A DNA stretch of 64,000 bases. It comes from Diphasiastrum complanatum (taxonomy: Eukaryota > Streptophyta > Lycopodiopsida > Lycopodiales > Lycopodiaceae). Position numbers and translations under genes: made by a program. Where the stretch lies: the NCBI GenBank assembly GCA_029204225.1, contig CM055111.1, forward strand, positions 21,592,507 through 21,656,506. The letters run 5' to 3'. The notes below the pieces were generated by a model, which was not told the DNA's origin, did not search any database, and saw only the letters and a program-made list of their open reading frames with translations. Shown one piece after another: positions 10,943-52,683 of the stretch (the first letter of the stretch is position 1; the number at the start of each line of letters is the position of its first letter).

Positions 10943-11020
<78 letters not shown>

Positions 11021-19022: not shown

Positions 19023-19078
<56 letters not shown>

Positions 19079-19136
19079 TGATATCTTTTTGGGGGTGGGG
19101 GGGGGGGAGCAAGGAGATCAGTAGCAATGGACAGCC

Positions 19137-19192
<56 letters not shown>

Positions 19193-24687: not shown

Positions 24688-24745
<58 letters not shown>

Positions 24746-27700
24746 AGGATGCTGACTTGACAGGGCAGATTGGGCTACGCTGATCTGACAGCGCTGCAGG
24801 GCTTCTTTTGCTCACTGGCAGCCGGTTTGGGCAGCTCACCATGGCTCCTCCTCGAGGGTAAGGCCCTCCTCGTGCCACACGGACTCGCTCCCCTACAGCT
24901 AGCACCTCATCCTCCCCCTCACTGTTGACTCACCCCCTGCTACAGTTCCCCCCTTGCTGCTTGCCACAATACCCTCCCCATCGCTGCTCGTTGACTCCAC
25001 CACGTTGTAGACTGATGATGTGGCAGCGCTGCCTGCCACGCAGGCAACGCTGCCTGTTGATGTAGCACCGCCCCCCACCCCCCCCCCCCCCCCCTTGCCT
25101 CTTCTCCACTTTCACTTTCCTCCTCTTCTTCTTCTTCTGCTCTTCCTTCTCTTTCATCTTCCTCTTCTTCCACCTCTTCCTCGTCCTCATCGATCTCCAA
25201 TCCTTTGAATCTGGCCATTCCTACCGGCCTCCTTCCTATTCCTATTTCCCAAGAACCTGTAAGAATTAATGGTTAATTGTAGAGGCCAGCCTGCGTGCTA
25301 GAAGGCCTATTTTTATTTTTAGTATAGGTACTATCTATTTTTAGTATAGGTACCTAAGTTAGTACCAATTTTGCTAGAATAGTATAGAAATCTATTTTAA
25401 CCAAGTTAGCATAGATTTCTATTGTTAAGACTTCATAATTGGCATTTCAATTGCTATTGTAGAAGGATAGCTTTTGCTTTTCATTGTGGGCAATCTCTAT
25501 AAGAGTAGATGGGCGCCCACCTCCATTGTTATCTCAATTTCTAGCTTATGAAGCATAGCTTCTTGCAGTCTCTCTTCTTCCTCAGCTTGTGGTTGATGAT
25601 TTGTGTGAGTACTAATAAGATTAGTCTACTCCGATTAGAGAATCTCTTCGATTCTAACATGGTATCAGAGCCATCTCGTTAAGATCGGGATCTATGGAAG
25701 GAAGGAGAAGATCAGCGCTGCAGGTTTTACTGGTGGAGATTGCATCTAGTGGAGGTGCTATTTGGTGAAGGTTGTATCTGGTGGAGGCGTCATCTTGTGT
25801 AGGTTTTTCTGGTGGTCACATCTGGCGCAGGTAGCTTCTGGACAGGCAGCAGTATCAGACAAGCAGATCTGAGGGAGGCAACATCCAGGATAGTAGAATA
25901 GGTATTTTCTTGTGCAGGTTTTATGTGGTGCAGGTTTATCTGAAGGTGGCAGCAGCAACCAGACAGGCAGTACTCGAGGCAACAACGATCAGGATAGGTG
26001 TTCCTGAGGGCGGCAACAACTGGAGAAGGCAGTACCTGAGTAGGTAATATCTGGACAGGCAGTACTTGAGGAAACAGTGTCCAGGACAGGTTTTCCTGAG
26101 GGCGGCAGCAGCTAGGGAAGGTGGTATCCGGACAGACCAGAGTCCTCCTCCTTTGTTGAGGGTGTTGGCTCACCTTATTTGGACCTTTCAATGGATATCT
26201 TCCTCACTGGGGATTTTAATGCCCGGACAATGTCACGACAGACAGAGTTCCATGATGCTACAGATCAGACGCGAGCTCATGCCCTTGATAGTGACAGCTT
26301 GGGGATCACCAGGATTTCTGATGATGGACTAGGACCTATTACTTCATATGGTGAGTACCTGTTGCAGTTTGGTGAGGCGCATGAGTTAGCCATTTATAAT
26401 GGCCTACCTCACTGGCCTATTTTTGGCAGCTATACTTGTCACTCTCACAGTGGCGATCATAGTGTGGTTGATTACCTCATGGGGTCACCATCATCCATTC
26501 CTCTCATTCATAGCTTCCGTATCTCCCCTACCACCCTCTTTGATCATTCGTTCCCATCCTTCGCTATTGGCCACCTTCCTCTACCACAACCTCAACGCCA
26601 GTCCATCCTTCCCCATGCACCCAAATACACCTTCCACCCCCTCTCTATCCCACTCTACCAGGAACCTCTTGCCTCCTTACTTATCTCTTTTCCACACAGT
26701 GAACCGCTGGAGTCACAAGCTGCCTTCCTCACCATATTGCTGCTGCTTTGGCTTTCCCCTTATAAACCTCACAAACACAAACTAATCCATCCACGATTAT
26801 CCCGACTTTTCCATCCATCGTGGTATGACGCCGAATGCCGATCCCTTCACCACTCTATCACAGATGCTCGTTTCCACGCCCGCCATCTCCTCCACTCTTT
26901 AACGACAATTGTACAACTGCACACTCCGTCACAAAAAACGTGCCTATGATGACTCCGAAGGAAACCATCTTGTGAACCTCCTTCTCAATTCCTCCTCTGG
27001 TGCCTTTTGGCGCGAGTTTATCCCTCGTGCCCCACCCCCTCTTTTGGACGATTTACATATCTAGACCGACTATGCTACCCAACTTTACACTATACCTACT
27101 GATATGCCCATCTCCATCTCTCCTCGACCTTCAGACTTCATCTTTTTCACCCCTGACTTGGTTCGGGCAGCAATCAAAAAGCTGAAAACCCACCACACAA
27201 GAGACATTGCAGACCTTGAGTCTGAGCTACCGATTCACGCCCCCGATACCCTTGCCCCTACGCTATCCACTCTCCTTAACCATGCTATTGTTGAGGGCTT
27301 CCCATCCTCTTGGTGCACCAACATCATACATCCTCTCCATAAAAACGGTGACCCCATGGTACCTCGTAATTACCGCACTATTATGATTGGACATGTTCTC
27401 GAGAAGTTATATGGCGTCATCCTCCAATCTGCAGTTAGCTCAGAGGCAGAGTCCAGGAGATTACATGCTTTCGGTCAGGCAGGGTTCCGCGCTCATTATT
27501 CCACTACAGATCACATATTCACACTTCGAGTCATCATTGAGGAAGCTAGACACAGGAGAGAAAAGGTTTATGGTTGTTTCTTGGACTTCAGGAAAGCCTT
27601 TGATTCTGTCCCACTCTCCTTACTTATCCAGAGACTCCGAGACCTGGGCTTCTCTACAGATATTATTCTAGCTGTCATGTGTCTCTATGAGAGGGTTTTG

Positions 27701-28637
27701 GGCTGCTTTCGTCATGGTAGTGGCATTTCTGAGCAGATCTGGAGTACCATTGGGGTTAAGCAGGGATGCTCTCTCTCACTAGTTCTCTTTGGATTATATA
27801 TTTGATGAGCTAGAGCAGGTCATCTCTCAGTGTGGTGGGGAGGGTTGTCAGTTGGGAGACCTTTTGATTGCCATCCTTCTCTATGCGGATGGTGTAGTAC
27901 TAGTCTCCCATACCAGAGAGGGATTACAGAGACAGTTGGACTGTTTACACACCTTTTGTACTCAGTGGGGGATAGGGGTGAACTTGTCGAAGACAGTTAT
28001 GGTCTTCAATACCTCTCGGTCCTTCATGCAACGCCAGGAGCTTACCTTTGAGGGACAGTCCCTAGAGGTGGTCTCTTCATACACTTACCTGGGTGTGCTC
28101 TTCTTTGGTCCTACCTTGACATGCGGCTACTTCTAGACTTGGGAAGGGCCATTCTTCCCTAGTCCAGCTGGAGAGATTCTGCTTCCGTAAGTCTATTCGT
28201 GATGCCCTGAGTAAGTGCAGACTGTTTGACACCATCGGATGACCTATCAGATGATGAGGCCTAGCGTACTCAGCCACCACCTCCTGCCAGATCTACACGA
28301 GCCTCCAGAGCTACCAGAGCTCCTCAACACCAGCTTCTATGGGTATCAGACGTTTTTTTTGGGATTGATATTTTATTCTTCCTCTTTACTTTCCTCAACA
28401 GAGAAGGCGGTTAAGCTCTTGCACCTGTACTCTCTTTAGAGTTGGAGGTTAAGCTCTTATATGCTTTTTACAATTCTATATTGGATGTGTCTTTAACTAG
28501 CTAGAGAGATTTCTATATTGTTTTTTCCACTTAGACTAGCGATTTTTATGTTGTCCGACATGGGAAGTGTTCCTACGAGATATGTACTTATTTCTTCTGT
28601 CTTATGTGCTCTTGGGCACCCAATAGACATTAATATA

Positions 28638-28734
<97 letters not shown>

Positions 28735-31700
28735 ATGTGCTGCCGCCTCCCCTGCATCCTCCCTCCTCGCTATAGCTATTACGCTGCCGCCTCCCCTACA
28801 TTCCCCCCCCCCCCCCCCCCCGCGCTGCAAATGAACCCCCCCCCCTGCTGCCATCTCCCTCACCCCCGATCTCCTCGTCGCAGTTGTCCCGTCCCCTGCT
28901 GCCACCACCGCTACATCCCCCTCCCTAACTGTAGATACGCCGCCCCCTGCTGCCACCTCCACCACCTCCGCTCCCCCCGCTGCAGTTGTCCCGCTCCCCT
29001 GCTGCCACCTCCCCAACATCCGCCTGGGTCAGGATATTGGTTTGGATAGAGATCTTTTATTGCAGCATGTTATTTTCCACCAGAGTCCTCGTCTTTTGCA
29101 AAGGATATTGGATCTCCATATCAGGACCTCTCACCAGATATTATCAAATTCTCAGAGTAGGGGCATATTCTCCTCACAGGAGACTTTAATGCCCGGACGT
29201 CTTCGAGACAGACAGAGTTCTTCGACACCTTTGATCAGCTGCGTGTTCGTGCCCTCGACAGTGATATGCTTGGGGTTACCAGGACCTCCGCGGACAGTTT
29301 GGGACCTATTACTTCATATGGTGAGCACTTACTGCAAATTGGAGAGGCGCGCGCATGAGCTAGCCATTTATAATGGCTTACCCTGCTGGCCACACTCAGA
29401 CAACTATACATGCCATCCTCACAGTGGAGGACATAGTGTCGTTGACTATCTCATGGGGTCACCATCCTTTGTACCCATAGTCTCTGACTTCTGCGTTTTT
29501 CCCACCACCCGTTCTGATCACTCTTTTCTCTCCTTCGATATCGGCCACCTCCCACCCACTCATTCATCTACACTACCCATGATTACCCGAGCACCCACGT
29601 ACACATTTGATCCCATTTACATGCCACTGTACTGGCAGTCCTTGGCTTCACTTTTACATTCCTTTCCTCATGACAGTCCAGTCGACACCTAGGCTGCTTT
29701 TCTCACCACCTCTCTCCACACGGCTTCATGGTCAGGGCTACAGATTATCGTGGTTCTCTTAGGCATCGCACCTCCTACTTGAGTCATTTGGTATCTCCAT
29801 CACAGACCTTCCCTCAGGCACACATCAGTATATCAGACGATTCCTCTATCGCACATATCTAGAGCGGACTTGGCATAACCAGCTAGGAGTTAAACCAGCT
29901 TTCTACCGGACACATTTCTTGGAGCTGGATGCATCTGGGACCCCGGTCATGCCACGCTACTTGGAGTCGGGACTATCACATTGCCTCAGATTCACACTGG
30001 GACAGCTCAGGGTGTCTTCTCATAAGCTAGCTATTGAGATGGGGAGCTTCCATGGTATTCCCAGAGAGGAGCGGATTTGCTAGCTATGCTCTCTAGGTGA
30101 GGTGGAGTCAGAGGAGCACTTTATCTTTAGATGCCCAGTATACTTTGGGATCAGAGGGCGATATCATTGCCTATTTCGAGACATGCCCACCACTCTACGC
30201 TCCCTCATAGTCTATGAGGACCCACGATGTGTCGCTTCTGTTGGTACGCGAGATGTTCATACTACGGAGAGATCTATACGGGAACCCCCAACATTTCACC
30301 TCACAGCCACTGATTACTTCATTCTTCACTAGGCGGAGATCGCGTGATTTAGTGCTCGAGGATGATGATTTTGACAACGACGAGGATGATAGCTGCTCAC
30401 ATGCTCATAGAGATCAGAGACAGTGTACCCCCCACCATCACCATCACGCTATTACTAGGATCACTAGACATCCTACTACACATGCTCATGCTCAAAGATC
30501 TCTGCTTGCGGATCTGTCATCGCTGGTGCCCATCGTTCTGCTGCTCGCAGGTTTGCCCTCCCCCATCGCGATGGTGATCGCTGCTCCCATCTGCCAGCGC
30601 CATCCTACGATCCTACTAGCTTGCAGATCTGCCCCTATCAATGCTCAACACCTGATCGGACCAGACTTCTTCCTGTCTGCCATCGCTGTTGGCTCGCATT
30701 TCGGTGCGGATCTAGCCTAACAAACATCTGCCTGAGATGCCTTGCCGTAAAGGGGCTCTTGCCCATCCTTCCAACGCTGCTTTGTCTTCTTCATCTGCTC
30801 CGTCTTCCTCTTCCATTTCAGATCCACCTTCATCTTCACCTTCTATTCCAGTTGCAATCCCTATCTCTTCGTCAGATCCTATTCTTGCTAATAGTGAATC
30901 CATTATAGCCGATCCTTTGACCCCGAATACCCCAGAAGAGGAATCACTTCTGCCTCCAGCCTTTATGATCTCCGTCATTCGTGCAGATTAGTTACATTCC
31001 TATGAATATCTCAACAACCATTGAGAAAAACTTTCTTCTCTTGAAGCTATTATCCAAACGGTGCAATCTCATCTTTAGAAACTAGATTCGTCTATTTATG
31101 ATCTCAAGAAAGAAGTTGCAGCGAAGCTCCCTTTCATTCGACTACTTCAGCTAAGATCCAACAGCTTGAAAGCCAAGTGGAATGGGCAGATGTGCTTAAA
31201 GGTCCTAATACTGCTGTTCTACCACCTCCACCTTCATTTATCTCAGCTACGTTTACCGAGAGCCGTTTGCGAGAGCAAAAGGATCTTAATGTCCGAGTCA
31301 GAGGTATTATGAACTCCCATGGTGCTGTTGGTGAAGCTAAAATGTTTCTTGAAGAGAGTCTTCAACACCACCACAAAGATATGGATACTGCATGGCGGCC
31401 TAAGAAAGATCCAGGGACTCTTGTCATACGTTTTGCATCTGGAACTGGTCGTCATGAAGTGCTAGGGAAGAGATCTACACTGAGGGGTACCGCGATATAC
31501 CTGGATGAAGACCTTACTTTCATTCAGGTTCAAGAACGGAAAAAAGCAAAACAGGAGGCTATAACCAATGGAAAGCGGGTGATCTACAGGGATAGTATCA
31601 TTCGTTTTGTAGATATTAAACCTGTTGCTATTAATGAGATATCTGAGATTGTTTAGAGTTAGTGAGATAGTTAGAGCACTGAAGAGATGCCAGTTGAATC

Positions 31701-34700
31701 TGTAAATGGTCTTCGTACCATATAATCCTGGACATTATCCCTTCTTAGTTAGTTTGGTTTTTGGTATGCTGTTTGACGACATTGCTCCGCCTTGGTTCCA
31801 TTTTACCTAATGTACTTGTTCGTCTTATACGGCTTTTGGCATGGAAAAGACGTTAAAAAAGCTTTCTTCTTTCTTTCTTTCTTCTCTCTCTCTCTCTCTC
31901 TCTCTAACAATCCATTTTTCGTGTTCTAGGATTTGGGTGTGAGGAATTTATTCAGTTGGTGCTGTTTCCAAGCAAATGGTGTCACGTTTTGCATGTAATT
32001 AGCCACGTGCTCAATAATAAACATTGTTAAACGTAGCCACTTGAAGAAGTATGCACTGGAGTAAAGCCTAAAGTGTCTCACTTGTGAGTTTTTATATGTG
32101 TTGCATTTGCCCATGTACCTGATGAAAAGCAATAGAAGCTGGACACTAACTCCACCAAATCAGGTTTTGTCGATTATGTTCACAAATCAAAAGCTTATAG
32201 GCTATATGATCTTTTTGTTAAGAAAAGAATTGTCAATAGAGATGTCATATTTGATGAGTATGGAAATACAGGTCGTATACAAGATTCTCAACCAAATCAA
32301 ACTCAAGAATTGGACTTTGATGGAGCCTTGAAAAGTGTATTTGATCATGATTTATAGGATGTCAAGCAAGAGGATCAATCTAAGAAAGAACAGGTGCAAA
32401 ATGTACCTTAAGAGAAGCTGAAGAGACCAAAATGGTTTCGTAGAACCTTTGGAGATGTGGATGCATCAAATCAAGCTGAACAGGGCACAAGAAGAATCTT
32501 GCAGGATAGGAGACAACCTCCTAGTATGAATTTTTCCCTATTGCTTCAATTATGGATGTGTAGGAACCTAGTACTTTATGAAGGAGGTGCTATGGATGAA
32601 GAGTATAGGTATCATCAAGAACAACACTTGGGATCTGGTGGAGCTTCTCAAAGGCAACAAGGCTGTATGTACAAAGTGTGTGTACAATGTGAAACCCGAA
32701 GTGGATGGATCATTGCATAAGTACAAGGCAAGGTTGATAGCCAAGGACTATATGCAAAAGGAGGGCATCAACTTCAAGGAGACATTAGCTCCCATGGTGA
32801 AGATGCACACTATCAGATCCATCATAGCTCTTGCCACACAATATGAATGGGATCTTTAACAAATGGATGCGAAATTAGTGTTCTTGAACGGTTACATTGA
32901 TGAGGAGGTTTATGTCACTCAACCAAGAGGGTTTGAAGTGAAAGGCAAGGAGTTGCACATATGCAAGCTAAAGGAGGCCTTGTACGGTCTTAAACAAGCT
33001 CCTCGTGCATATTCTAGGATCGACGAGTATCACACAAAATAGGGGTTCATCTCAAGAGTACAACGGATCCCATATTGTATATCTTTCATTTTGATGGTGA
33101 GATACTCATCTTGATTGGTAGTGATAATGCCCTAATTTATAAGATCAAGAGAAGTTTTTCTCAAGAATTTGAGATGGAAGGATTTAGGGCAGCTTATTTT
33201 TTGTTTGGGATGTTGCACCTCTTGAATTAAATTTGAAATTTCACTTAGCATAAACAAAAGAAGAAGTGAATGAGACTTTGTTTAGACAACTTATGGGGAG
33301 TCTCAATATGCTACTATCACTAGGCCATATATTTCATACACAATTGGTACTATAATTTAATATTTGTTAGATCTTAGAAAGTCACATTGGTGTGCAACAA
33401 AAAGACTTTTAAGATATCTCAAAGGCACATTCAATTGTTGGCTTGAATATGTCAAATCTTGAGATTTCACATTATAGGGATTTTTTGATGATGATAGGGT
33501 AGCTGATATTGAAAGCATGAATCTATTTCTGGTTGTCTTTACCCTTGGTCTTGCAGCAATCTCATGGGCCAACAAGAAGCAGTACTTGGTTATGCATGTT
33601 GCTTGCAGAATGTTAAGAAGTACAGGTTGATGCAACTCCCATTCATCGTGATAACTTGAGTTGCATACAAATTGATAAGAATCCTGTTTTCCATGCTCAC
33701 ACTAAACATACAGAAGTTCACCATCACTTTATTCAATGTACCCACAAACGAGCAGTTTGCATACATCTTGACAAAGGACCTTAGCAAGGAAGTTCGCTTG
33801 ATGTTAAGGCTAACCAACTAGTCATTAAGGGAGAGTAATGTAGGAAATATGACATGCACTAATGTGCTGCTCATTTTCGGTTATTTAGCTTAGCTTAAGT
33901 GGAAGCCAACAAGGCCCGCATGAGTAGGGTAGCACCTACTTGAATATTGCCTTCATGGCAGTTAGAGATTTTTTGAGATTAATTTTACTTCACTTGTACT
34001 TTCAGTTATTCAGTTGCGAGTGTGGCAACTTTAGGGTTTATTGTGCTCTTTTGTGAATGATTTTACAGTCTTCGGGTTGATGCGTAGTTGTGGTTGTGGG
34101 TGTGATGGATGATTAGCAACCTTCGAAACATAAGGCAAGATTGGTAGCTAAAAGGTTCGCCCAACAAGAAGGGTTGTTTGCTCGTGTCACGTTGACATTT
34201 ATGAAGACCATGTTGGCCTTGGTAGCGGTTGAATGGGATATCCAACAGATCGATGTCAAGAGTTCCTTTCTCAATGGGCAACTATAGGAGGAAGTTTACA
34301 TGGAGCAGATGATGATCGCAGTCGCGAAGCTTTCGCGAAGGAACCACGACTCTCTTGCGCTCGGATGGAGTTCAGATGCGATCGTTGGACACTGCCAGCT
34401 GAATCACTCCTATAGTCCTCCAGAGTGTAGTCAGGCACTGCTGATCTACGTTTATAAAATTAATGCAGCATTCAACATAGTTTCAACCAAGGTGCGGAAT
34501 TGAAATGAACAAGAAAAACTCAGACACACGATTAACAGCAGATGCATTTGCATTCGAGATCAGACACAACGAGAAAAACATCTATATTGATCTTTCTTTG
34601 ATTTCTTCAAGCACTGCATGCAAATCCACGCAGTGCGTTGGCGTGGGAGAAAAACACACTTCTCTCACGAGCAATCATCTCGCTTTACTAGCGGACAACT

Positions 34701-37700
34701 GGATCTACAGATCCTAGACAGAATTATCTTCGCACGCATGCGGACATGTATTCTGTATTTCGTCTTGATTGCTTACTTGCATCAGACTACTAGATTACAC
34801 TGTATGTGCACTCTGTTGATCTATATGTCAAGTATCATCCAGTAAGTATAGTCGCTCTATGTAAATCTAAGATTAGAGTGATTAAGCATCTACAACCAAT
34901 CAGGGAATTACAAGAGTGGCAGATTAGCCACGACCTAAAATGTATCTGTTGACGCATGCCATCAGATCATATATCTGTACTTCTGGGTACTTGTGTGATC
35001 TTTGTTGGTACTCTTTGGAACGTGAGGGCAAAACGGGTTTCGCGACATTTTTCGTGTCGCGTCATTGGTTTTGTTTCGCTCGTCTGCTTTGACCCTCGTG
35101 TTTGCGAACCGTTCGTCTTCGTTTCCTTTGACTTTCGTGTTCGCGAAACTTTTCGTGCTTCGTGTCTCCTGACTTTCGTGTTCGCGAACATCTTCGTCAG
35201 GCTGAGGGTTGAAAGCTAGCAAGGCTTTGTAGTTATAAACATTTCGTTTCTTTGGCTCCCTCTCAAAGCATGATAGCTTTACGATCACGAGATTGCTCCT
35301 TCGTCTCTCAAAGAGTCCTTTGTCCAGGGCTTTAGTGAAGATGTCAGCAACCATGTCGTTCGTTCCGATGAAGGTGGTCTGCAGCAGCTTCTTTTCAATT
35401 AGATCCCTGATCAAGTGGTACTTGATCGCAATGTGCTTCGTTCTGGAATGGAACACGGGATCTTTCGTCAGGTGTATTGCAGAGGTGTTGTCCATCTGCA
35501 AGACCAGGGGCTCGTTCCTTGTTTCGCCCAATTCGTCCAGGAACTTCCTTAGCCAGATTATTTCGTTGGCCATCTTTGCTGCTGCAACATATTCTGCTTC
35601 GCAGGATGACTGGGCTACAACGGTCTGCTTCTTGCTGACGCAGAGAACTGTTGCTCCTGATGCAATGGTGCATCCTCCTGAGACGCTTTTACAGTCGTCC
35701 TTGAGAGATGCCCAGCTAGCATCGCTGTAGGAAAGTATCCTGAAACCTGCATCACAACAATAACACAAGCCATAATCCCTCGTTAATTGAAGACATTGCA
35801 AAATGCGTTTTGCAATCTTCCAATGTGTCGAGCCTGGATTCGTGCAGAATTGGCTCATCCTGAACACTGCATAAGCAATATCAGGGCGTGTGTTGTCTGC
35901 AAGGTACATCAGTGATCCTATCAGCTTCCTGTAAGGTGCTGCATTTGTTCTCTCTCTTCCTCAGTCTTTGGACAGTCGTTGCTTGTCAGCACCGTCCCTG
36001 CGAGCATTGGAGTGTTCGCTCCTTTGCAGTTCAGCATCCCAAAGTCCTCTAGGATCTTCTGGGTGTATTTGGACTGGTGAAGGTATAACTTACCTCCCTC
36101 GTAGTCCCTTTCAATTTGTAAGCCTAGGTAACACCTGGCTTCTCCCAGATCCACTATCTCGAAATGTTTCGAGATGTCTGCCTTTACTTCAGCAATTAGC
36201 TGCTCACTCCTGCAAAGTATCAGAGTGTCGTCCACATATACAGCCACTATGATGATCTGCCCATCTGTAACTCTGACATATACATTAGAATCAGCCAACA
36301 AGGCTTGAATCCTAATGATTTCAGGGCTTGATCTTTCTTCTTGTACCATTGTTGGGCTGATTGTTTCAGACCGTAGATACTTCTGTGCATTCTGCATGCA
36401 TAGTCAGGAAGTAAATTCGAGACATATCCTTGGGATTGATCCATGTAGACCTCTTCGTCTAATTCGCCATGCAAAACGGCTGTCTTCTTGTCCACAACGT
36501 GGATCCTGAGGTCATAAGCTGCTGCATATGCAAATAACAGACGTAGGGACGAATGTTTGACGGCAGAAGAGAAGGTTTCAGAGTAGTCAATACCATATCT
36601 CTGAGAGAAACCTTTCGCTACCAGTCTTGCCTTGTATTTCGTGATGTTCCCATCTGGTCCGTATTTGAGCTTGAAAACCCATTTGCATTTGACAGTCTTG
36701 CGCTTATGTGGTAACGGCTCTAACGTCCATACTTGGTTCTTCCTCATGGACTCCATCTCTTCGTTCATGGCTTGGATCCATCTGTCCTTCTCTGGACTGT
36801 CAATCACTTCCTCGAAAGTCTGTGGTTCGCCACTGGATCCGTAGAACTCTTCTGATGTGGAAGCTGAGCTGCCTGGCACATATCTTGCTCGCGCTCTTCG
36901 TGGTTTTGTCGACCTTCTGGGAGATCCTCCTAAGATAGCTATGCCTTTGCCTTTGTCTGCTCTGCTCGGTCCGGAATCATCTTGGTTTATAGAAACTGCG
37001 GCGGCAGGTTGCCTCTCGAATCTTTCTTCGTCAGATTTGTCGCTCGAATGGGAGACGACTCGAAAATCTTCGTTTTCGTGTTCGTCCTCTGCTCCCTCTG
37101 TCGTTGGTGGCAGGTCATAGTACTGTCTCTCCAGAACTTCGTAGCTGACAGGATCGTCATTGGCCATTGTCCTGCTCTCATCGAATCTGACATCTCTCAC
37201 TGTTTTCACAGTGTTCGTGTCTGGCATGTAGACTCTGTAGTATGACGAATTGTTGTCATAACCTACCAGAAATCCCTGCTCGACTTTCTCATCAAGCTTC
37301 TTTTGAAACTTTTTAGGAATATGTGCATAAGCTGCACAGCCAAAGATTCTGACGTGAGACAGATTGGGCTTTCTACCCCACCATAGCTCATGTGGTGTCG
37401 TGTGAGGGACACTAGACTTGCCTGTTCTGTTCTGGATGTATGCGGCTGTAGCTACTGCTTCAGCCCACAGTGCCCTTGGAGCTTTCGAGTAGGCCATCAT
37501 GCATCTGGCTGCTTCCATCAGGGTCCTGTTCTTTCGTTCAGCAATACCATTGTGCTGCGGTGTGTAGGCTGCAGTTCTTCTGTGAATGATGCCACGATCA
37601 TTGCAGAAGTCAGTGAAGGGATTCGAGATGTATTCGCCACCTCGATCTGTTCTGATCTGCTTCACTTTGCTGCCTATACATCTCTCAGCCCAATTCGCAT

Positions 37701-40700
37701 ATTTTGTGAATTTATCAAGTGCTTCAGATTTATTCCTGAATAAAATACACTCTGGCAAATTTGCTATAATCATCAATGAAGGTTATATAATATTTTGAAC
37801 CTCCTACTGAAATCACGTTGAATGGTCCACAGATGTCAGAATGCACTAGCTCCAGAATCTTAGTCGTTCTGTAGGAGTCTTTGACGAATGGCATCTTGCC
37901 CTTCAAACATGCATCATAGGTGGTCGAACTGGTTGCATTCGAGATGCTGACCCCTGTTATTGCTCCATGATGGCTTGCTTGGTAAAGTGCCATTGAGTTC
38001 ACGTGGCAGAGTCTCCTGTGCCACAGAGTGTCTGGCTGGTCATCATGAGTCTGATGCACCTGATCTGTAGGTAGGCGTACCTTCAGATGATATAGGTTTC
38101 CTTTCCTTCTACCTTGAGCGATCAAAGTACTGGTACTGGCATCAATCACATTGCATGCTTCGTCAGAAAACATCACACGCATCCCTTGCATCTGCTATTC
38201 TTGCTATAGAGAGCAAGTCTTGTTGCAGAGTAGGCACGAACAGAACATCTTCGAGTCGTCTGTCTCTGTCGTTGGTGTTGAGCCATAGTGAACCAATACC
38301 GTTCACTTGATGTCTAGATCCATCTCCAAGAACTATGAATCTTGAGGGATCTGCACTTCTGAAATCAGACATTATTCGTCTTGATGTCACGAAGTGTGAG
38401 GTGGCTCCTGAGTCTAGAATCACCTCATGTGTGTCAGATGTTGATGCTGCACACACGTCTTCACAGATATAGGCGGTCGAGCAGTTTTTGTTCGTTCTTT
38501 CTTTGCCCATTTTCGAGCTCTCGGGCTCCTCGACATAAGATAAACTATTGCTGTTCTCCTGTCTGTTCTGTGCTGATTTGTTTCTCGGGTTCTGGCAGCA
38601 ATCCATGGCTGCGTGACCCTTCTTATGGCAATGGATACACTCAATCTTGGGATTGAGCCAGCATGTATCTACTGTATGCCCGTCTCTTCTGCATCTCACG
38701 CAAGTTTTCTTGTCTGTACCTTGTTGTTTCGACCTCCCTTTGCTCTTCCAGTTGCCTTTGCTGGTTCCCTCTACTTGCTGATCATGATCATGCCTCTGAT
38801 TCGGCTCCCTATTAGGCTTGAATTGCTTTTTGGATTTCTCTTTGTTGTCGTAGAGGGCTTGGTCAGAACCATCTTTGTGATCAAGATGTTCTCTGGCCTT
38901 GACTTCCTCTCGAATCTCGACAATTGCCTTTTTGAGGTTCATGGCAGGATCTTTCGCGAGCAGGGTTTTTGTCGTCTGGAATGATTCAACAGGTACGTGA
39001 GCTGCTTCTCAGCTGACACTGCATTCTCTGCTCCAGAGTTATGTAGTGATAGAAACAGATCCTTCATTTTTCTCACGAAAGAGGTGAGGTCTTTTCCATC
39101 CCACTGTACATTGGTCAGTTGATCTTCCAACATCATGATTTGACTTCTTGACTTCGTCTGAAATCTGGTGAGTAATGCATCCCACATCTCCTTAGCTTTG
39201 GAGAGTGTAGCCCGGTCAAGTGTGAGACTATCTTTGATGGAAGATGATAGCAAGGCTACTGCCTTGTCGTTTTTCTCCCTCCATTCGCGTAGCTCCTTGC
39301 CTGTTGTCGTAGGCATTTCTTCTGTGCCATCCACCCAGGGGAATAGTCCTTGGCCCTTGAGTATCAGTGATGTCTTAACTTTCCAGGCTAGAAAGTTAGA
39401 TCATGAAGAATCAAGTATTGTGCAGATCTTGCTCTGCATGCTGCAGATTGAAGCCATTGCTTCTTGGAGTCTGTTCCCTTGTTGATGGTTGTTTGTTTGA
39501 ATGCTTGGCCTCCTGGATCTGCTAGCTTCTTGGCTATGTCAGAATATGACAGGATGATCGGCTCTGATACCACTGATGAGGATCGCAGTCGCGAAGCTTT
39601 CGCGAAGGAACCACGACGCTCTTGCGCTCGGATGGAGTTCAGATGCGATCGCTGGACACTGCCAGTTGAATCACTCCTACAGTCCTCCAGAGTGTAGTCA
39701 GGCACTGCTGATTTACGTTTATAAAATGAATGCAACATTCAACATAGTTTCAACCAAGGTGCGGAATTCAAATGAACAAGAAAAAATCAGACACACGATT
39801 AACAGCAGACGCATTTGCATTCGAGATCAGACACAACGAGAAAAACATCTATATTGATCTTTCTCTGATTTCTTCAAGCACTGCATGCAAATCCACGCAG
39901 TGTGTTGGCGTGGGAGAAAAAAACACTTCTCTCACGAGCAATCGTCTCGCTTTACTAGTGGACAGTTGGATCTACAGATCCTAGATAGAATTATATTCGC
40001 ACGCAGGCGGACATGTATTCTGTATTTCGTCTTGATTGCTTACTTGCATCAGACTACTACATTACACTGTATGTGTACTCTATTGATCTATATGTCAAGT
40101 ATCATCCAGTAAGTATAGTCGCTCTATGTAAATCTAAGATTAGAGTGATTAAGCATCTACAACCAATCAGGGAATTACAAGAGTGGCAGATTAGCCACGA
40201 CCTAAAATGTATCTGCTGACGTCATGCCATCAGATCAGATATCTGTACTTCTGGGTACTTGTGTGCTGGTACTCTTTGGAGCGTGAGCGCAAAATGGGTT
40301 TGGCGACATTTTTCGTGTCGCGTCGCTGGTTCCGTTTCGTGTCGTTGGTTTCGTTTCGCTCATCTGCTTTGACCCTCGTGTTCGCGAACCGTTCGTCTTC
40401 GTTTCCTTTGACTTTCGTGTTCGCGAAACTTTTCGTGCTTCGTGTCTCCTGACTTCGTGTTCGCGAACATCTTCGTCAGGCTGGTGTTACAAATCATTCT
40501 GTCCAGCATCTTTGCAACTCTCTTTGATGTAATGTTCCACTTTGAAATTGCTTGCATGTTTCCAGTTTGTAGGTCATTCCTGAATTCTATGATCAGTTTG
40601 AATCATGTATACTCCCTATTTGATGCTTTTCTTATCAACCTTCAATGGCCTTGTACATACTGTGTCTTATATTCTTGTTTGGTCAGAAAGTATGGCTGCT

Positions 40701-43700: not shown

Positions 43701-46700
43701 ATTTATCCTTTTTCCAAATAAATAAATAAATAAATATATATATTATTGGCGACATAGGTTGCGGATCACTGATGTTCCGGAACGCTTTTGCAGCGGATCG
43801 CAATCCACTGCAACCATGGAGTAAAGGCATTGTAGCAAGTGGTAGAACACTTATAATCATTATAACAAATCGAAGGTAACTGTCTCCCTCAGTCCACCCA
43901 AGCAATATCTATGCAGAAAGCATATATTCCATAGCATATTTTGGATGATCCATCAAGCTAAAACTGAATGTGATCTCCAATCTCTAAAAAGGGAAGTCCA
44001 AAAATGTTCGGTGGATCGACCATTACAATTACTCACCACATCATTTTGTAAACAAAAAAGTTTAAATAGTTGAGCCAATTCAAGAGCCTTCACATTGCTT
44101 TCCATCGAGGTAAATGCTGCCATTTTTTGTCAAACTTTCTACTATCACCTAAATAACATCATTGCATAACAAAATCCATGCAAATACTTACTCACCTCTT
44201 GTTGGGATTTTTGAATGGTTACAATAGTCCTTCAACTCTCAAATGTTTCTCTTAATTGAGGTCGTGCTATTTACAATTGACAAGCTAGTTCTCCACAATC
44301 GTTTTCATAATTAGCTTGTAGAAATACTTTCATTCCTATTTATAAGTTTTTGTATACTTGGTTCGCTTGCACTTGGAGAATCATGACATTCATACATGAT
44401 TTGGTGCCTGATTATGTCATTTTTCAACGCACATGCATTACCATCTCAGAGTAACAGCCTGTTTCAGATATAGTACCAGTTCACACTACCTTACTCTTGC
44501 CTTTGGTATGTTGGGGGATCGAGGCAGATATAAGTTAGTAGATATCTCGGTGAAGGAAACTGCATTCACCTCACCTACCTTGCTGAGTTCAGACGACCAC
44601 AAAGACGTGGTGTTAAGCTGTTACTACATTGTAATTAGTCGTTTCTAGCGTACTCTCTGTACTATTTAAATGTACTGGCAATTGAATGCTAAATTGGCGC
44701 AAGTGCCTGAAGTAGTGTAATTCATGAAGATTGGCTGTGGACAAGCATAACTGGATTACTACGTGCAGCTGAAGAAGTGCTGTTGTGGATCGATTTGGAG
44801 GTTACTTGGTTGGGCAGATGTTAACTCAGCAGCCGAATGATTGAATAAACCCTGGTGCATTTAACTAGTAGGTACATTGATGAATAAGATATATACACCC
44901 CAAAGGGGAAGTTTAAGCAAAAGTAAGCTCAAACAAGAGCGAAGCTTGCACTAAAGCTAAGATTAATCCAGATCCTGACATTAAAAATAAAGGTGCAAAA
45001 ACTATGATGATGTCAGTGGGAGTTTGCCAACTGACTGCAGCAGATCAGAAAAGTGAAGAGGTGGTGAGTCGGCTAATGAAGGGAGGTGACATGTAGTAGA
45101 CCCAGCCACCGTTGCCCGTTGCAGGATTGATAGGGCCTGAGCACGTTGCAGGGCAACGGAAATGCATTGTTTGAAAGAAGCCACAAGAATAGAACCAGGA
45201 ATACCTTGACGCTCTGCCGCCTGATGAGAACACATGCGAAAAAAATCCTCAAAGTGTCGATGCAATGTGCCATAAGTCTCAGTTGCCAGGGGGATGAAAG
45301 CATCAGTAGGGTGCCTGTTGGAGTAGTTTTTTTCCTTCTCTTGTGCTGCCACGCCTCTTGGTGTGAAGGCAGAGCGAGGCAGTAGGTCACCACGCGTGGG
45401 ATTAGCAACAACATCTACCAAAGTACGAACCATCTCGAGAGAGGACAATGTCAACACGCCTGCAGGAAGAGTGGGACGCGCGGTAGAAGGACATGAGACT
45501 GCTTTCGAGGACATGGAATCCTCCACCTCTGGCTTTTGCGGCCGCTGCATCTCTAACAAGATCATGCGTAGCTGTGCGCTCACTCCCAGAAGGATAGCGG
45601 AGGAGGTGGATAGCAAGAGCATCAATAGGGTGACCACAAACACACCTGGAGGGACCCAAGACCGAAGGATGAGGTAGCCCCAAGCGAAGACGAAGAGCAG
45701 TGGTGAAGATGGCGGAAGACAACCGAAAGGAAGGAATAACAGGCCGAGCTGATAGCCAAGCCCCCGCACCTGGACCCGCAGAAGAAAGAAGTCGAGCTCA
45801 ATGCAATGCCGAAGGAGCCTTAGAGAGCATGCTGGAAAGGGTTTGCTTGTGCACGCGCTCCAAGAGGGTCTCTTGCAGGTGATCTGAGGTGAAAGTGAGG
45901 AGTTGCTCAAAAGGAGGAAGACATGCTTGGGCAGAGAGGGGGAGCAGCTCTCGCGCAGCGATGAGGAGGTGTTGAAAAGGCAAAGAACCGCTATCCACAC
46001 GAGCAATGCAATCCACCAAGAGAGGGCAAACGCTAGAAAGGAACCGAGAAGACAAAGCAGGTGCGACAAGAGCCCAGCTCCCAAGAAAAGCTGCAGGTGC
46101 AGAAGAAACCGTAGAGAGAAGACCCACACCTCCACAAGAAATGGGTAACCGAGCTGAAAGGGTCTCCACACCATCCAAAGAACCCGGGCCCAAAAGGCGG
46201 CCAAAAACATCCATAATAGAGTTGTCAAAGGAAGAGAGAAGATGCAAAAAGTCCTGAGTAGGGGGGAAAGTCCACAACAGATAAGGACGCTAGATAAGCA
46301 AGACGTCAAGATGCCAAGCGCGACCTGAGTGTCACCCAACCGGGGAAGCATATCTGAATGAGCAACATCCTCTTGGAGAGCCTCACCATGAAAGGTAGAG
46401 CTGAAGGAAGTAGACCCAAAAGGACCACCCAGAATGCGAATGCCATCTGAAGGAGTAAGGAAGCCTTGAGGAGGAACAAAGTCCGGGGGAAGACCTGCTG
46501 AAGACCACACTGAACACTTGCGACGTTGAATAGACAAACCAAGAGAAGCCAGTTGCTCAGAGAAATGATGAAATGTGTGGAGCACCGTAGGAGCAGGACC
46601 AACAATATGAGTGTCATCAGCAACCGAAGGAAATAAGCAGGAGGGAAAGGCCTTGCAGAAGCTCGAAGGGCACGGAAATGAGCCAGAGCGAAAAGATGAC

Positions 46701-49700
46701 CACCCAAAGGATCACCTTGACCAGTACCTGTTGCAGACTGTATAGTAGAAAGATCTCTAGAGCGCACATGGTGACTGTAAAAGAGAGGAGTCTCAGTAGC
46801 ATAGAACAACCGCACAAATGGGATAAGCTGAGCCAACTCACCGCCCACAGCTCTCGAAGGATCGCAGCTCTAGAAACAGAGTTAAAAGCATTGGAAACAT
46901 CCACTTGGAGAACAACCCAGTCAGGATGGAGATCAAGAGTGGCACACAAACCATGAATGACAGCTTCACATCCGCCAGGAGTAGAGACGCCAAATTGATG
47001 AGGGGAGAGAAAAGAGGCGAAAATTTGTTGAAACTGAAAACAGATAGAGCGACTTACAAGACAGAGGAGGACTTCGCCAACAGCGATGGGACGGACACCA
47101 CCCGAGGCTTAGTCATGGCGATCAAATGAGACACAAAGATGTGCAACCGAAAAAGGAATGTGACCAGAGGCGATAAAAGAGCAGACCTGAAAGAGTTGAC
47201 CAAAGCCACTGGCAGAGTCCTCAGGTGGAAAGCAATCACGAAGGTGTTCATAGACCAAACCGGAGGGAGCACCAACAACAAGACGGGGACTACGATGGAA
47301 GGCACGAGAGAAAAAATCACGATCAAGCACCAAGTCAACATCAGGCACAAAGTCCATTGTTGTATCAGTACATATATTGTATGCAATCTGATAGATTCAT
47401 GTTTGTCATAAAATCATGTCTTAGCCAATCCACATGTACTGCGCACACTGTACAATGATCTTCTAAGTATGTGCTTAGGAGGAAAAATAAATACAATGAA
47501 GAATTTTGTGTGCATTTGCTTTGGAATGGCATATTGAAATAACTTAGGCAAAGAAATGCACATATATGGAATTTTCAGGAACTGTTTTTGCCTCTCTTGT
47601 GCTAGTTTCTTATTTGACCTGTTATTTGTTATAAACAAGAATCAAGACGACTAAGCAATTTCTTATTTATGAAATCATGATATATTCAGTTAATATCATG
47701 TGTAATAATCTTTGCAGTTTCAGCACTGCTCAGAAATTGGACAAGCTTGGCATGCGAGGCAGTGATACGTAAGCACAATGGACTTTGTTTGAAAGTTGCA
47801 TAATTCTTCTTTGTCACGTGTGGAGTCTGAAACTGTCTCTTACTCTTCTGGTGACAGATGTGAATTGGTTTTTGAAAATTGTTTTGTGCCCGAAGATAAT
47901 GTTCTTGGACAAGAGGGAAAAGGTACCACCCACAATCTTTTCTTTGTAAACAAGGCTATATCCATGCAGAAGTTTTGGTGTACGGACTGATGTTGTATCT
48001 TAGAGTTTTATGTAAAGCTCATGTCTTCTTTGGTGGAGGATTTTAGTTGCGGTGATAAATTTGTCTGTCTAGTTCTGGAGGCTGGATAGTAGGTGGTTTT
48101 ATTTAAGCGACAGTGTCACTCAGAATGAATATGTAATCATAATCTAGTTATTAACGCTTCAACCTTCTTATTTTGTATAAGATTTTAAGTCAGATTCACA
48201 GTGGAAAATTTTGAGATATATCTAAACTGTCTTAGTTGTACATTGACGGCTTTATAGGTAATAACAGCGATTTTCAATTTTGGCAGGAGTCTATGTAATG
48301 ATGTCTGGCTTGGATTTAGAAAGGTTAGTCCTAGCTTCAGGTCCTGTTGGGCTCATGCAGGCTTGCATGGATGTTGTTCTTCCATATGTTCGTCAAAGAG
48401 AACAATTTGGGACACCAATTGGAGAATTTCAGCTGATTCAGGTATAGCAAGTCATTGAAGGCAGACTTTTCCCTTAGTTGAGAACTTGAGCTTCAACCAG
48501 GTTTTGCAAGTTTAACATCTGTGTATATCTTGTGAGCATGATATGCAAAGAAGTTTCAGGAATGTCTACATTATCTTCTTATGAATTCTTTTATATATTT
48601 TTATTAACTCAAGGAATCAGATGTACGTATTATTTTACTGAGTATTTTCAGCATTGCTCATCCTCTTAAGCATGGCACCTCAGCAAGTCCTACCCTGCAC
48701 AGGCATAGTCTTTACTTGTTTGGTGGAACCTTACTCCATGCTTTGCACTGACCACTAGGTTACTACTCTGGGAAGGACCCAGTAGAACAAGGTGCTGTGT
48801 CAATGAGGTGCAAGCAGAAAGCTTCACTTTTGCAGCCAACTGAAGGCTGATGAGTGGTTGATAAATCTTCTCTGTTGATTTAGATCCTTAACAGTGTCTG
48901 AACATCAAACAATTTCTCCCCATTTATGGCAGCCTGCAAGTCTCAGGTCTGCTCCCCCCTGGTTTTATGTAATATTGGACTATAGTTGTGTGAGCATGCT
49001 GCTACAATTCGAAATTCCGAGTGTGTCTGTGGCCAAAATGATCTCATCCCAACTTGTAGATTGTACCTTCACTTACTCAAAGAAAGAAATTTTCTTTATT
49101 GTGTCTGGAAATCTGTCTCTCAAAGAACAAACCTTTGAAATGGTAAAATTTTTAGAGAAGTAAAAACATTGTCCACCACTGCATCTGCCATCATGTGAAG
49201 CTTATCTGAGCTAGATGTCCCTCAAAGTGGCAGGATTAGTGGGGAGGTTTGTCTTCATTTTGCTCCAATTGATATCAAGGTAGTTAGTCATTTTGATCTA
49301 TGAGATATGGCTCCACTCTATGGTTAAAGTTGACCTAGGCCATTCTCACGATGTGTGTGGGGCTTACCAGTATACATTGTTGTACAAAGAAATGTATGGT
49401 TAACTTCTGCAAATTGATGAGTTTAGAAGATTGATTTAGTAGATTAAGAGGCTTATAGGTGAGTCCAAATCATGTGGTCATGCTTGGATCGAGATGATCC
49501 TTATGAGGAGCTCTTGATCCTTATGAGGAGCTGGCTAGATGGTAAGGTTCAATCCAACTGGCATCCTGAAAAGTAGGAACAAGCTAAGCATGGCACATCA
49601 ATGAGTTTCTCACAAGTGAGATAGGTCCAGAAAAGAAGTCGAAGTGCAATGTTCTTTAGCATGAAAACCTAAACCTATCGCGTGTGCACTATTATGGAGC

Positions 49701-49818
49701 ACTTACGTTTATTTTTTTTCCACTGAATATCAAAATCAAGCATAGGATTATGTCTGTTTGCTATGGTGACCAACGACAACAGCCGTTGAGAGTAGGTGCA
49801 TGCTACCAGTCGTGCATA

Positions 49819-49875
<57 letters not shown>

Positions 49876-51586
49876 AGCCAGCACTCGCCTATCTATGGCT
49901 CCACGCAAGAGGGGGGGAGGTAACTCCCCTCGCTCTCCAGCTCATTCTGTAAGTAGCTCCACCCTGCATAACCTTCGCCATGACAGTCATTTACAAAGGG
50001 AGGTGGAGGATTTCCAAATCTTTAGTTATTGGAGGAGCCGTTTTTCTTACCAGGAATCCCTTGCCTCCTTACTTCACTCTTTTCCACACAACTAACCGTT
50101 GGAGTCACAAGCCACCTTCCTCACCACCTGTCTCCACACTGCTGCCACTTTGGCTTTCCCCTCTAAACCTCATAAACACAAACCAGTCCATCCCCGATTG
50201 TCCCGGCCTTTCCATCCACCGTGGTATGACGCGGAATGCCGATCCCTTCACCACTCTATCACACATGCTCGTTTCCACGCCCGCCATCTTCTCCGCTCTT
50301 CATGGCAACTGTACAACTGCACACTCTGTCGCAAAAAACGTGCCTATGATGACTCTGAAGAAAACCGTCTGGTGGACCTCCTTTTTAGCTCCTCCTCTGG
50401 TACCTTTTGGCGTGAGTTTATCCCCCGTGCCCCACCCCCTCTTCTGGACGATTTACATATTTGGACCGACTATGCTACCCAGCTTTACACTATACCCACT
50501 GATACACCCATCTCCATCTCTCCTCGACCTACAGACTTCACCTTTTTCACCCCTGACTTGGTCCGGGCAACAATCAAAAAGCTGAAAACCCATCGCACCA
50601 GAGACATTGAAGACCTTGATGTTGAGCTGCTGATTCACGCCTCCGATACCCTCGCCCCTACACTATCCACTCTCCTTAACTGTGCTGTTGTTGAGGGCTT
50701 CCCATCCTCTTGGTGCACCAACATCAAACATCCTATCCATAAAAATGGTGACCCCATGGTACCTGGTAATTACCGCACTATCATTATTGACACGTTCTCG
50801 CGAACTATATGGCACCATCCTTCAGTCTGTAGTTAGTTCAGAGGTAGAGTCCAGGAGATTACATGCTTTGGGTCAGCCAGGGTTCTGCACTCATTATTCC
50901 ACTACAGATCACATATTCACACTTCGAGCCCTCATTGAGGAAGCTAGACACAAAAGAGAAAAGGTTTACTGTTGTTTTGTGGACTTCAGGAAAGCCTTTG
51001 ATTCTGTCCCACGCTCCTTACTCATCCAGAGACTCCGAGACTTGGGTTTCTCTACAGATATTATTCTAGCCCGATGCATTGCACTCATGATACGAGAGAT
51101 GTTTAGACTTGTGTCAGACAGCCCAGCAGAGTCATGTTTTTCAGCCTCAGATCACTTCTTTCTTCTCCAGGAGGAGAGGACGAGACCTAGTATTTGATGA
51201 TGATGATGATGATGACGACTTACCTGCCCATAGAGATCGGAGACAATGTCCCACTCATACTCATGCTGCAGCACGAGCTACTCGACCTATCACGAGGAGA
51301 CTTCATCCTCCTGGACGACGTCAACGACCACTAGCGGTCCTTCATGCTGCAGCCTGTATTACATCCTTTTATAACATCAGCAGGACAGGATTGGATGATA
51401 GTGTCATACCTTATTCATGACATTTAGCAGTTTATATGCTCCCACATGTTTCATATATCATCACATTTATTTCAGTTCATAGCATTTAGATTTTTTCTTT
51501 CTATTATCGTTTTGGAGACGTTGCGTACGCTCCCATTGTTACCACATACTACTAGTCTTATATGCCTTTTGACATGGAAAATACAT

Positions 51587-51632
<46 letters not shown>

Positions 51633-52613
51633 GCTAGCTTGGTTCATCCGAGTGAAGCCTTCTGTTCCACATGAGATTCTCCTGGCCGAGTTTGCAGTTC
51701 CACCTATACAGATCGAGGCAACTCTTCAGCTCATTACCTATAAAAGAGGGTACAGGCATTACTAGAGATAGACAAACGATACATACAGATTGCACTATCC
51801 TCCTCACAGTGTCTTCATCATCAGGGGTACAGATTATCATTCGAGACTATCACATTGCCTCAAATTCACACTGGGACAGCTCAGGGTGTCTTCTCATCAT
51901 GAGATTGGGAGGTTCCATGGTATTCCTAGAGAGGAGCGGATTTGCCAGTTATGCTCTCTAGGTGAGTGGAGTCTGAGGAGCATTTTATCTTTAGATGCCC
52001 TGTATGCTATGAGATCAGAGGGCGATATCATTGCCGGTTTCCAGAGATGCCTACCACTCTACGGGTCCTCACGATGTGTCGCTCTGATGGTAAGCGAGAT
52101 GTTCATATTGTGGAAAGATTTAGACGGGATATCCCAGCATTTTACCTCAGAGCCATTGATTACTTCCTTCTTTACTAGCGAAGATCGCGTGATTTAGTGC
52201 CTGAGGATGAGGATTATGACGACGAGGATGATAGCTGCTTACATGCTCATAGAGATCAGAGAAAATGTACTTCCCACCATCACGTTACTGCCAAGCTCAC
52301 CAGACATCCTACGCAGAGACGTGCTACTACACATGCTCATGATCCTAGATGACGCCAGCAGGCTCCAGTGCTTTCTCATGTTGCGGCTCGCATTACATCT
52401 TTCTACAGCATCAACACAACTTTGACATCTTGATTTGGATACATAGGATAATTATTCACACACACTCTCACATACATGTCTATTTTAGTTTGTACTAGAT
52501 GTTTTCTTTATTACAGTTTTGGAGACGTTTTATACGCTCCCATGGTTACCACATACTTGACATGTACTTCATTAGTCTTGTATGCCTTTTGGCATGGAAA
52601 AGACATTAATAAA

Positions 52614-52683
<70 letters not shown>

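Follow-up and report, generated by a model that had tools for sequence, protein, structure and literature searches.

Waldo, Dong and Kibi/Koshi are animal retrotransposons without long terminal repeats (non-LTR retrotransposons) that are specific for microsatellites. Strict target choice by long interspersed nuclear elements (LINEs) is documented in animals, and a further non-LTR retrotransposon, Togen of fish, is specific for the (TG)n microsatellite (PMC4640811). For flowering plants, 224 of 233 L1 families are given as ending in (A)n and nine as ending without a repeat, and the same table lists (TTG)n for RTE and (CA)n, (CAA)n and others for green-algal L1 and RTEX as 3' repeats (PMC3747384, Table 3). 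In stringent-type plant L1 elements (monocot 1a / LINE1-1_ZM) the 3' stem-loop is conserved, with compensatory changes, and the reverse transcriptase (RT) is believed to recognise it; stringent 3' stem-loop recognition has been proposed as ancestral for green-plant LINEs (PMC3747384). Microsatellites have also been described as 'landing pads' for plant transposable elements in a 2025 review (PMC12477314). In the literature searched, mostly as listings and without most subscription journals, we found no land-plant LINE that targets microsatellites.

Here we describe a LINE family of the clubmoss Diphasiastrum complanatum, encountered in a 64,000-nucleotide (nt) stretch of contig C20 (CM055111.1) of the 1.74 Gb assembly (C20:21592507-21656506; hereafter the window). 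With a probability that we put at roughly 0.85, (CT)n microsatellites are the integration target of this LINE, the sense strand of each insert runs along the CT strand, and copies come to be stacked head to tail as LINE-(CT)n-LINE arrays. It would thus be like Togen, Waldo, Dong and Kibi/Koshi in inserting into a simple repeat, with both junctions inside the repeat, but different in its land-plant host, its approximately 6,000 3' ends, its (CT)n target, its (TTTC)n tail and its almost absent 5' leader. With stringent-type plant L1 it shares a 3' stem-loop with compensatory changes, whereas it differs from plant L1 in being without poly(A). As in plant and algal LINEs with simple-repeat tails, a simple repeat takes the place of poly(A) at the 3' end; however, Table 3 of PMC3747384, restricted to flowering plants and green algae, has no (CT)n, and it lists its repeats as 3' ends and not as targets. 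The landing-pad review likewise associates plant transposable elements with microsatellites, but what it describes is a general preference of various elements, whereas our data concern a single LINE lineage that forms arrays and whose junctions have a fixed orientation.

We found that (CT)n follows the 3' end of this family throughout the genome. Ninety genomic 3' flanks, all on contig C1, were chosen without regard to (CT)n: the first 50 places of the 31-mer TGCCTTTTGGCATGGAAAAGACATTAATAAA (the focal set) and 40 places of the 13-mer GACATTAATAAAG outside the 31-mer list, including one (L114) that was counted though it contains no LINE. Together with seven ends from the window, these gave 97 3' ends, 80 of which (45 of the 50 31-mer copies, 28 of the 40 13-mer copies and 7 of the 7 window copies) reach (CT)n, scored as at least (CT)4 beginning within 40 nt of the 3' block, with tract length variable between copies, as the first-pass annotation of the window had expected. 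Ten consecutive A within 60 nt of the block were found at 0 of the 97 ends. By comparison, (CT)n was near only 1.9% of 20,000 random positions within the same loci. The orientation is fixed, in that (CT)n was near 59 of 68 mapped 3' ends and (GA)n near none of them, and (CT)n was near 0 of 28 other LINE breaks. Together with the 1.6-1.9% at random positions, these counts speak against chance, which the first-pass annotation had already held to be unlikely. Genome-wide, on the forward strand, (CT)6 lies within 9 nt of AAGACATTAATAAA at 1,136 of 2,828 sites; reverse counts of this gapped pattern were redundant and were not used, and no plus-strand site was repeated among the matches listed. This strict count gives a minimum, since (CT)n is often displaced outward by GC(TTTC)n. 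Poly(A)9 within 12 nt of AAGACATTAATAAA was found at no place in the genome, as compared with 5,746 sites of AAGACATTAATAAA itself on both strands. The first-pass annotation had taken (CT)n to be the tail of a LINE family that replaces poly(A). Its observation stands genome-wide, in that copies of the family regularly lead into (CT)n and poly(A) was never seen behind them, but (CT)n is better explained as the target, because it is also present 5' of copies, including truncated ones without upstream LINE similarity, and can continue as (CA)n.

The sequence next to the block often differs in composition from the long tract. At least two TTTC units separate the block from (CT)n at 37 of the 90 genomic 3' ends and at none of the seven window ends, and 17 of 60 tracts at LINE tails open with GC(TTTC)n, compared with 1 of 24 (CT)n tracts unattached to a LINE tail, suggesting, without proving, that the short GC(TTTC)n is the element's own tail and the long (CT)n the target. 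The plant RTE tails (TTG)n and (TTGATG)n were not seen here, the tails reading GC(TTTC)n/(CT)n. In three copies (L010, L055 and L091) the 3' end passes into (TTC)n and not (CT)n; such ends may reflect tolerance of related pyrimidine repeats.

At the 5' side, six full-length focal copies (L039, L042, L049, L053, L054 and L055) start straight after (CT)n and have their first ATG 3-25 nt from that point. The tract was in sight when these starts were recognised, the alignable part ending 110-837 nt before it, and the frames from the first ATGs are short in several copies (17-202 codons), as expected for old copies. Because the starts had been called in this way, a second sample was drawn by ORF1 similarity regardless of (CT)n (ORF, open reading frame); 40 matches were listed, the 20 after the query itself were fetched and eight were extended upstream. 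None of the 20 reached the full 5' end as first fetched, and the start was reached in six of the eight extended copies (L135-L140). All six adjoin (CT)n, of which 22-53 nt were seen; the first ATG lies 3-4 nt past the tract (37 nt in L137) and opens a frame of 102 codons or more. Five of these six stretches begin inside the tract, the sequence beyond being outside the view, and the six may include alleles or close relatives of one another. In addition, a truncated LINE in L126 lies directly behind the tail and (CT)n of another LINE. A genome-wide search for (CT)6-N0-9-ATGGCTCCTC gave 34 minus-strand places and 63 redundant plus-strand matches, with 0 in the backwards control. When the 5' boundaries of the 50 focal copies were classified by inspection, (CT)n lay at the boundary or close to it in 15 (L047 and L057 with only 10-11 nt of it) and was lacking in 19, and 16 boundaries lay beyond the fetched stretch.

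The strongest evidence for targeting comes from truncated copies flanked by (CT)n. L024 (254 nt, within (CT)n(CA)n), L025 (364 nt), L045 (190 nt, within (TC)n(AC)n) and L007 (322 nt) are 5'-truncated, have (CT)n on both sides and lack LINE similarity over the 300 nt above them; L035 (269 nt) also has (CT)n on both sides, but with LINE-like sequence 178 nt further upstream. At the extreme, L050 has no more than 24-30 nt of LINE 3' end between two (CT)n stretches, and a 3' end of another subfamily, of the same 24-30 nt, is embedded in a LINE tail in L103; the lengths are ranges because the leading pyrimidines are ambiguous. We also counted from the tracts, using 83 readable (CT)n tracts with self-matches excluded, one further tract being too short for scoring. 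Sense LINE sequence begins within 45 nt past the tract in 33 of the 83 (within 8 nt in 22), and 23 of those 33 tracts also form the tail of another LINE, whereas an antisense match was found at two tracts only, both where a sense match begins as well. Since the loci were picked by the LINE 3' end, these fractions apply to LINE-bearing loci and not to all genomic (CT)n.

The 3' end of the family is a two-part stem-loop with compensatory changes. In the window copy whose 3' block ends the second array (see below), the outer stem is formed by GTCT (52575-52578) and AGAC (52601-52604) and the inner hairpin by ATGCC-TTTT-GGCAT (52582-52595), the whole occupying 52575-52604 on the plus strand. The same fold, an outer GUCU/AGAC stem and an inner 5-bp hairpin, is found in 44 distinct 3' ends, with 94.9% of the cells of nine pairs paired. 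This is a favourable figure, because the 44 were chosen by hand from 64 distinct blocks and the 20 left out include damaged or diverged hairpins (L079, L081, L086, L096 and L097), as well as ends that are truncated in the hairpin (L101, L103 and t19), have a shorter loop (L111, L112 and t18) or are near-duplicates. Stem changes include U-A to C-G in nine sequences, G-C to A-U in 13 and A-U to G-C in four, and cells with a double change number 27, as against 8.5 +/- 2.1 in shuffled alignments and 2-6 in slid frames. Kinship alone can lift sequences above shuffles without structure, which the slid frames control in part.

The simplest reading of these features would be target-primed reverse transcription in which the (GA)n strand acts as primer. 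A (CT)n tract would be present before insertion; the enzyme would recognise GUCU-[AUGCC UUUU GGCAU]-AGAC at the RNA 3' end and the (GA)n strand of the microsatellite would be nicked, so that the exposed ...GAGA 3' end could prime reverse transcription on a short (UUUC)n or (UC)n tail, G.U wobble allowing GAGA to pair with UUUC. The complementary DNA, full-length or 5'-truncated, would then be joined to the upstream (CT)n. Because each insertion would leave (CT)n on both sides, neighbours could land there and head-to-tail arrays could grow. More tentatively, and less likely than not, (CT)n might serve at once as target, RT primer and promoter or leader, the first ATG being mostly a few bases downstream, with insertions leaving fresh landing pads by which the element seeds its own arrays.

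Other origins of the (CT)n have to be weighed. Were it a 3' tail belonging to the LINE, with insertion at random sites and (CT)n arising by RNA copying or RT slippage before it expanded as a microsatellite, one would expect (CT)n after the 3' end, as is seen in most sampled copies, and the proximal (TTTC)n is indeed tail-like; simple-repeat tails such as (TAA)n and (TGTAA)n occur elsewhere among LINEs (PMC3747384), and nine non-CT 5' boundaries remain. This explanation, however, does not account for (CT)n directly 5' of truncated copies with non-LINE DNA above, for head-to-tail arrays or for copies of 24-30 nt within pyrimidine tracts. Moreover, when target-site duplications were sought in 30 copies as repeats of at least 7 nt between the 5' boundary and the 3' flank, we found only non-CT matches of 7-8 nt, at scattered places in nine copies, several of the boundaries being provisional; a duplication within (CT)n would be invisible. 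We consider such a tail origin improbable, and rejected (CT)n as a pure tail since the 5' and truncated-copy junctions argue against it.

It has also to be asked whether the element could carry (CT)n at both ends, as leader or promoter and as tail, or whether arrays could stem from multi-unit read-through RNAs, with the 5' (CT)n carried along. Full-length copies do begin a few nt before the ATG, right after (CT)n, and the 23 of 33 LINE-leading tracts that double as the tail of another copy fit such an origin, but truncated copies without the leader also adjoin (CT)n where they break off, which happens at many internal positions, and we regard this possibility as very unlikely. Finally, (CT)n tracts are common in the window, and one might suppose (CT)n to be so abundant in the genome that the association would appear with any repeat family; chance or ascertainment of this kind is refuted by the random-position, other-break and (GA)n controls given above, and its probability is negligible.

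Several observations weigh against insertion into (CT)n. Among the 97 3' ends, 17 have no (CT)n by the measure used; one of these is L114, some carry nothing but (TTTC)n or (TTC)n, and in a few (L046, L075 and L102) there is virtually no repeat. Of the 34 focal copies with an assessable 5' break, 19 have no (CT)n there, and non-CT breaks were seen among the 20 ORF1 matches in L125 and, by eye, in L133. Two of the 19 owe their break to later insertions, of an LTR element in L040 and an inverted-repeat element in L046, and eight (L014, L023, L038, L041, L043, L050, L052 and L056) have sense LINE-like sequence within 15 nt above the break, which is therefore not their 5' end; the remaining nine (L009, L010, L012, L018, L027, L029, L032, L037 and L058) have neither explanation. 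No empty (pre-insertion) site was found: where a second, allele-like contig exists (L024, L045 and L032), the insert is present on both, judged by spacing, and joined-flank searches at other sites gave no second contig among the matches listed (40 candidates scored each). In addition, two of five covariation measures are no higher than in shuffles, namely pairs with a double change (4 versus 3.1) and further pair types (11 versus 11.0), because most changes cluster in few pairs and subfamilies.

Two flanks at first taken for junctions were set aside. TTTAAG at L046, considered as a 6-bp target-site duplication, was dropped since the upstream flank is, by eye, a terminal-inverted-repeat element, and the non-CT flank of L040 is not a genuine 5' junction but the end of a high-copy LTR element. 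This LTR element, present in L143, L144 and L040, is mostly 97-99% identical among the matches listed and ends in ...GGCTTGTGACA; in L144 its end is followed by what we take to be a tRNA-Met-like primer site.

The family is of high copy number, with approximately 6,000 traceable 3' ends. The exact 31-mer TGCCTTTTGGCATGGAAAAGACATTAATAAA of the 3' block occurs at 2,957 genomic places (backwards control 0), GACATTAATAAAG at 6,062 (backwards control 45) and AAGACATTAATAAA at the 5,746 mentioned above (backwards control 23), counts to which allele-like extra contigs contribute (C983, C2660 and C1451, for example, which are 99-100% identical to C1 regions). At C20:21242895, 0.4 Mb away, the 3' block of the window has a 99% copy. 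Both haplotypes thus appear to be present in parts of the assembly. The 3' block is common to copies truncated at points from 24-30 nt up to several kb. Judged from its predicted domains, the family is an apurinic/apyrimidinic endonuclease (APE)-type LINE with an endonuclease, an RT and an ORF1-like frame: L054 matches RVT_1 (E=4.5e-24) and Exo_endo_phos_2 (E=1.5e-06) of Pfam, and in the window the RT ORF gives E=1.2e-12 and the endonuclease ORF E=0.0087, the latter under the curated Pfam cut-off. The closest named relative of the RT ORF is O6H91_13G068200 of D. complanatum (63% identity over 55% of the query), recorded as a hypothetical/uncharacterized protein; the RT also has relatives in Ceratopteris and Adiantum, and among PDB entries the RT matches R2 (best 2.6e-13) and L1 ORF2p (best 6e-10).

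In the window itself, the seven tails of the first-pass annotation were located where it had placed them: at 10945-11017 and 19139-19188 on the minus strand and at 24688-24742, 28641-28732, 31862-31905, 51590-51630 and 52617-52681 on the plus strand, that at 31862-31905 being, as it had said, of mixed type, with (TTTC/TTC)n and then (CT)n at the 3' junction. Its statement that poly(A) is absent also stands, none of the seven copies having ten consecutive A in the next 60 nt. Five of the tails belong to two plus-strand arrays. The first, of three units (24027-31905), opens with a LINE 3' part carrying the 3' block and GCTTGC(TTTC)n (24027-24687). The (CT)n at 24688-24742 separates this from a LINE copy (24743-28640) with the endonuclease-like ORF at 26116-26949, the RT ORF at 27065-27805 and a diverged 3' stem-loop at its end, its block TGCTCTTGGGCACCCAATAGACATTAATATAAT being diverged but the hairpin retained. 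The (CT)46 at 28641-28732 separates this copy from further LINE sequence (28733-31861), in which an ORF1-like frame (31102-31656) stands right before the 3' block, in an internally deleted or composite arrangement. By eye, ORF1-like sequence lies directly 5' of the LINE 3' end both at 31102-31861 and in L048, a copy of about 1.04 kb; such short ORF1-plus-3'-end copies are possibly internally deleted, non-autonomous derivatives. The second array, of two units (49821-52681), begins with a (CT)n (49821-49871) that lies 5' of a LINE and is not marked as the tail of another; the LINE copy behind it (49872-51589) has its 5' end adjoining the tract, its first ATG at 49895 and broken frames. The (CT)n at 51590-51630 links it head-to-tail to a 5'-truncated LINE (51631-52616), which, as seen in L001, is at an internal LINE position at base 1 past the tract and ends in the 3' block, the (CT)n at 52617-52681 forming the 3' junction of this LINE, which ends at 52614. 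Thus, in the window too, (CT)n lies 5' of LINEs, a feature absent from the first-pass annotation, the tracts at 24688-24742, 28641-28732 and 51590-51630 passing directly into more LINE sequence. On the minus strand, 19139-19342 holds a LINE 3' end with its (CT)n tail, with LINE 5'-like sequence further along that strand, and 10945-11083 holds, with its (CT)n, the 3' end of a LINE from a second subfamily, whose hairpin reads ATACC-ATAG-GGTAT.

Other repeats lie in the same window. A tandem-repeated stretch (84%) at 18971-19204 has (CT)25 per copy on the minus strand, beside the LINE tail at 19139-19188. A second RT-like region on the minus strand (45002-47108; RVT_1 E=8.8e-06, below the Pfam cut-off) is, by eye, unlike the (CT)n LINE. 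Also by eye, 34308-40483 holds a Copia-like element with integrase, RT and RNase H-like reading frames, bounded by 93% identical direct repeats (34308-35204 and 39575-40483) that are probably its LTRs.

Insertion into (CT)n accounts for LINE arrays that an annotator could mistake for one long or rearranged element, and the partly two-haplotype assembly would be useful for presence/absence comparison of insertions. On this reading, a plant LINE would have reached approximately 6,000 traceable 3' ends through a common microsatellite, and stringent 3' stem-loop recognition, target choice and microsatellite growth would be joined in one testable system.

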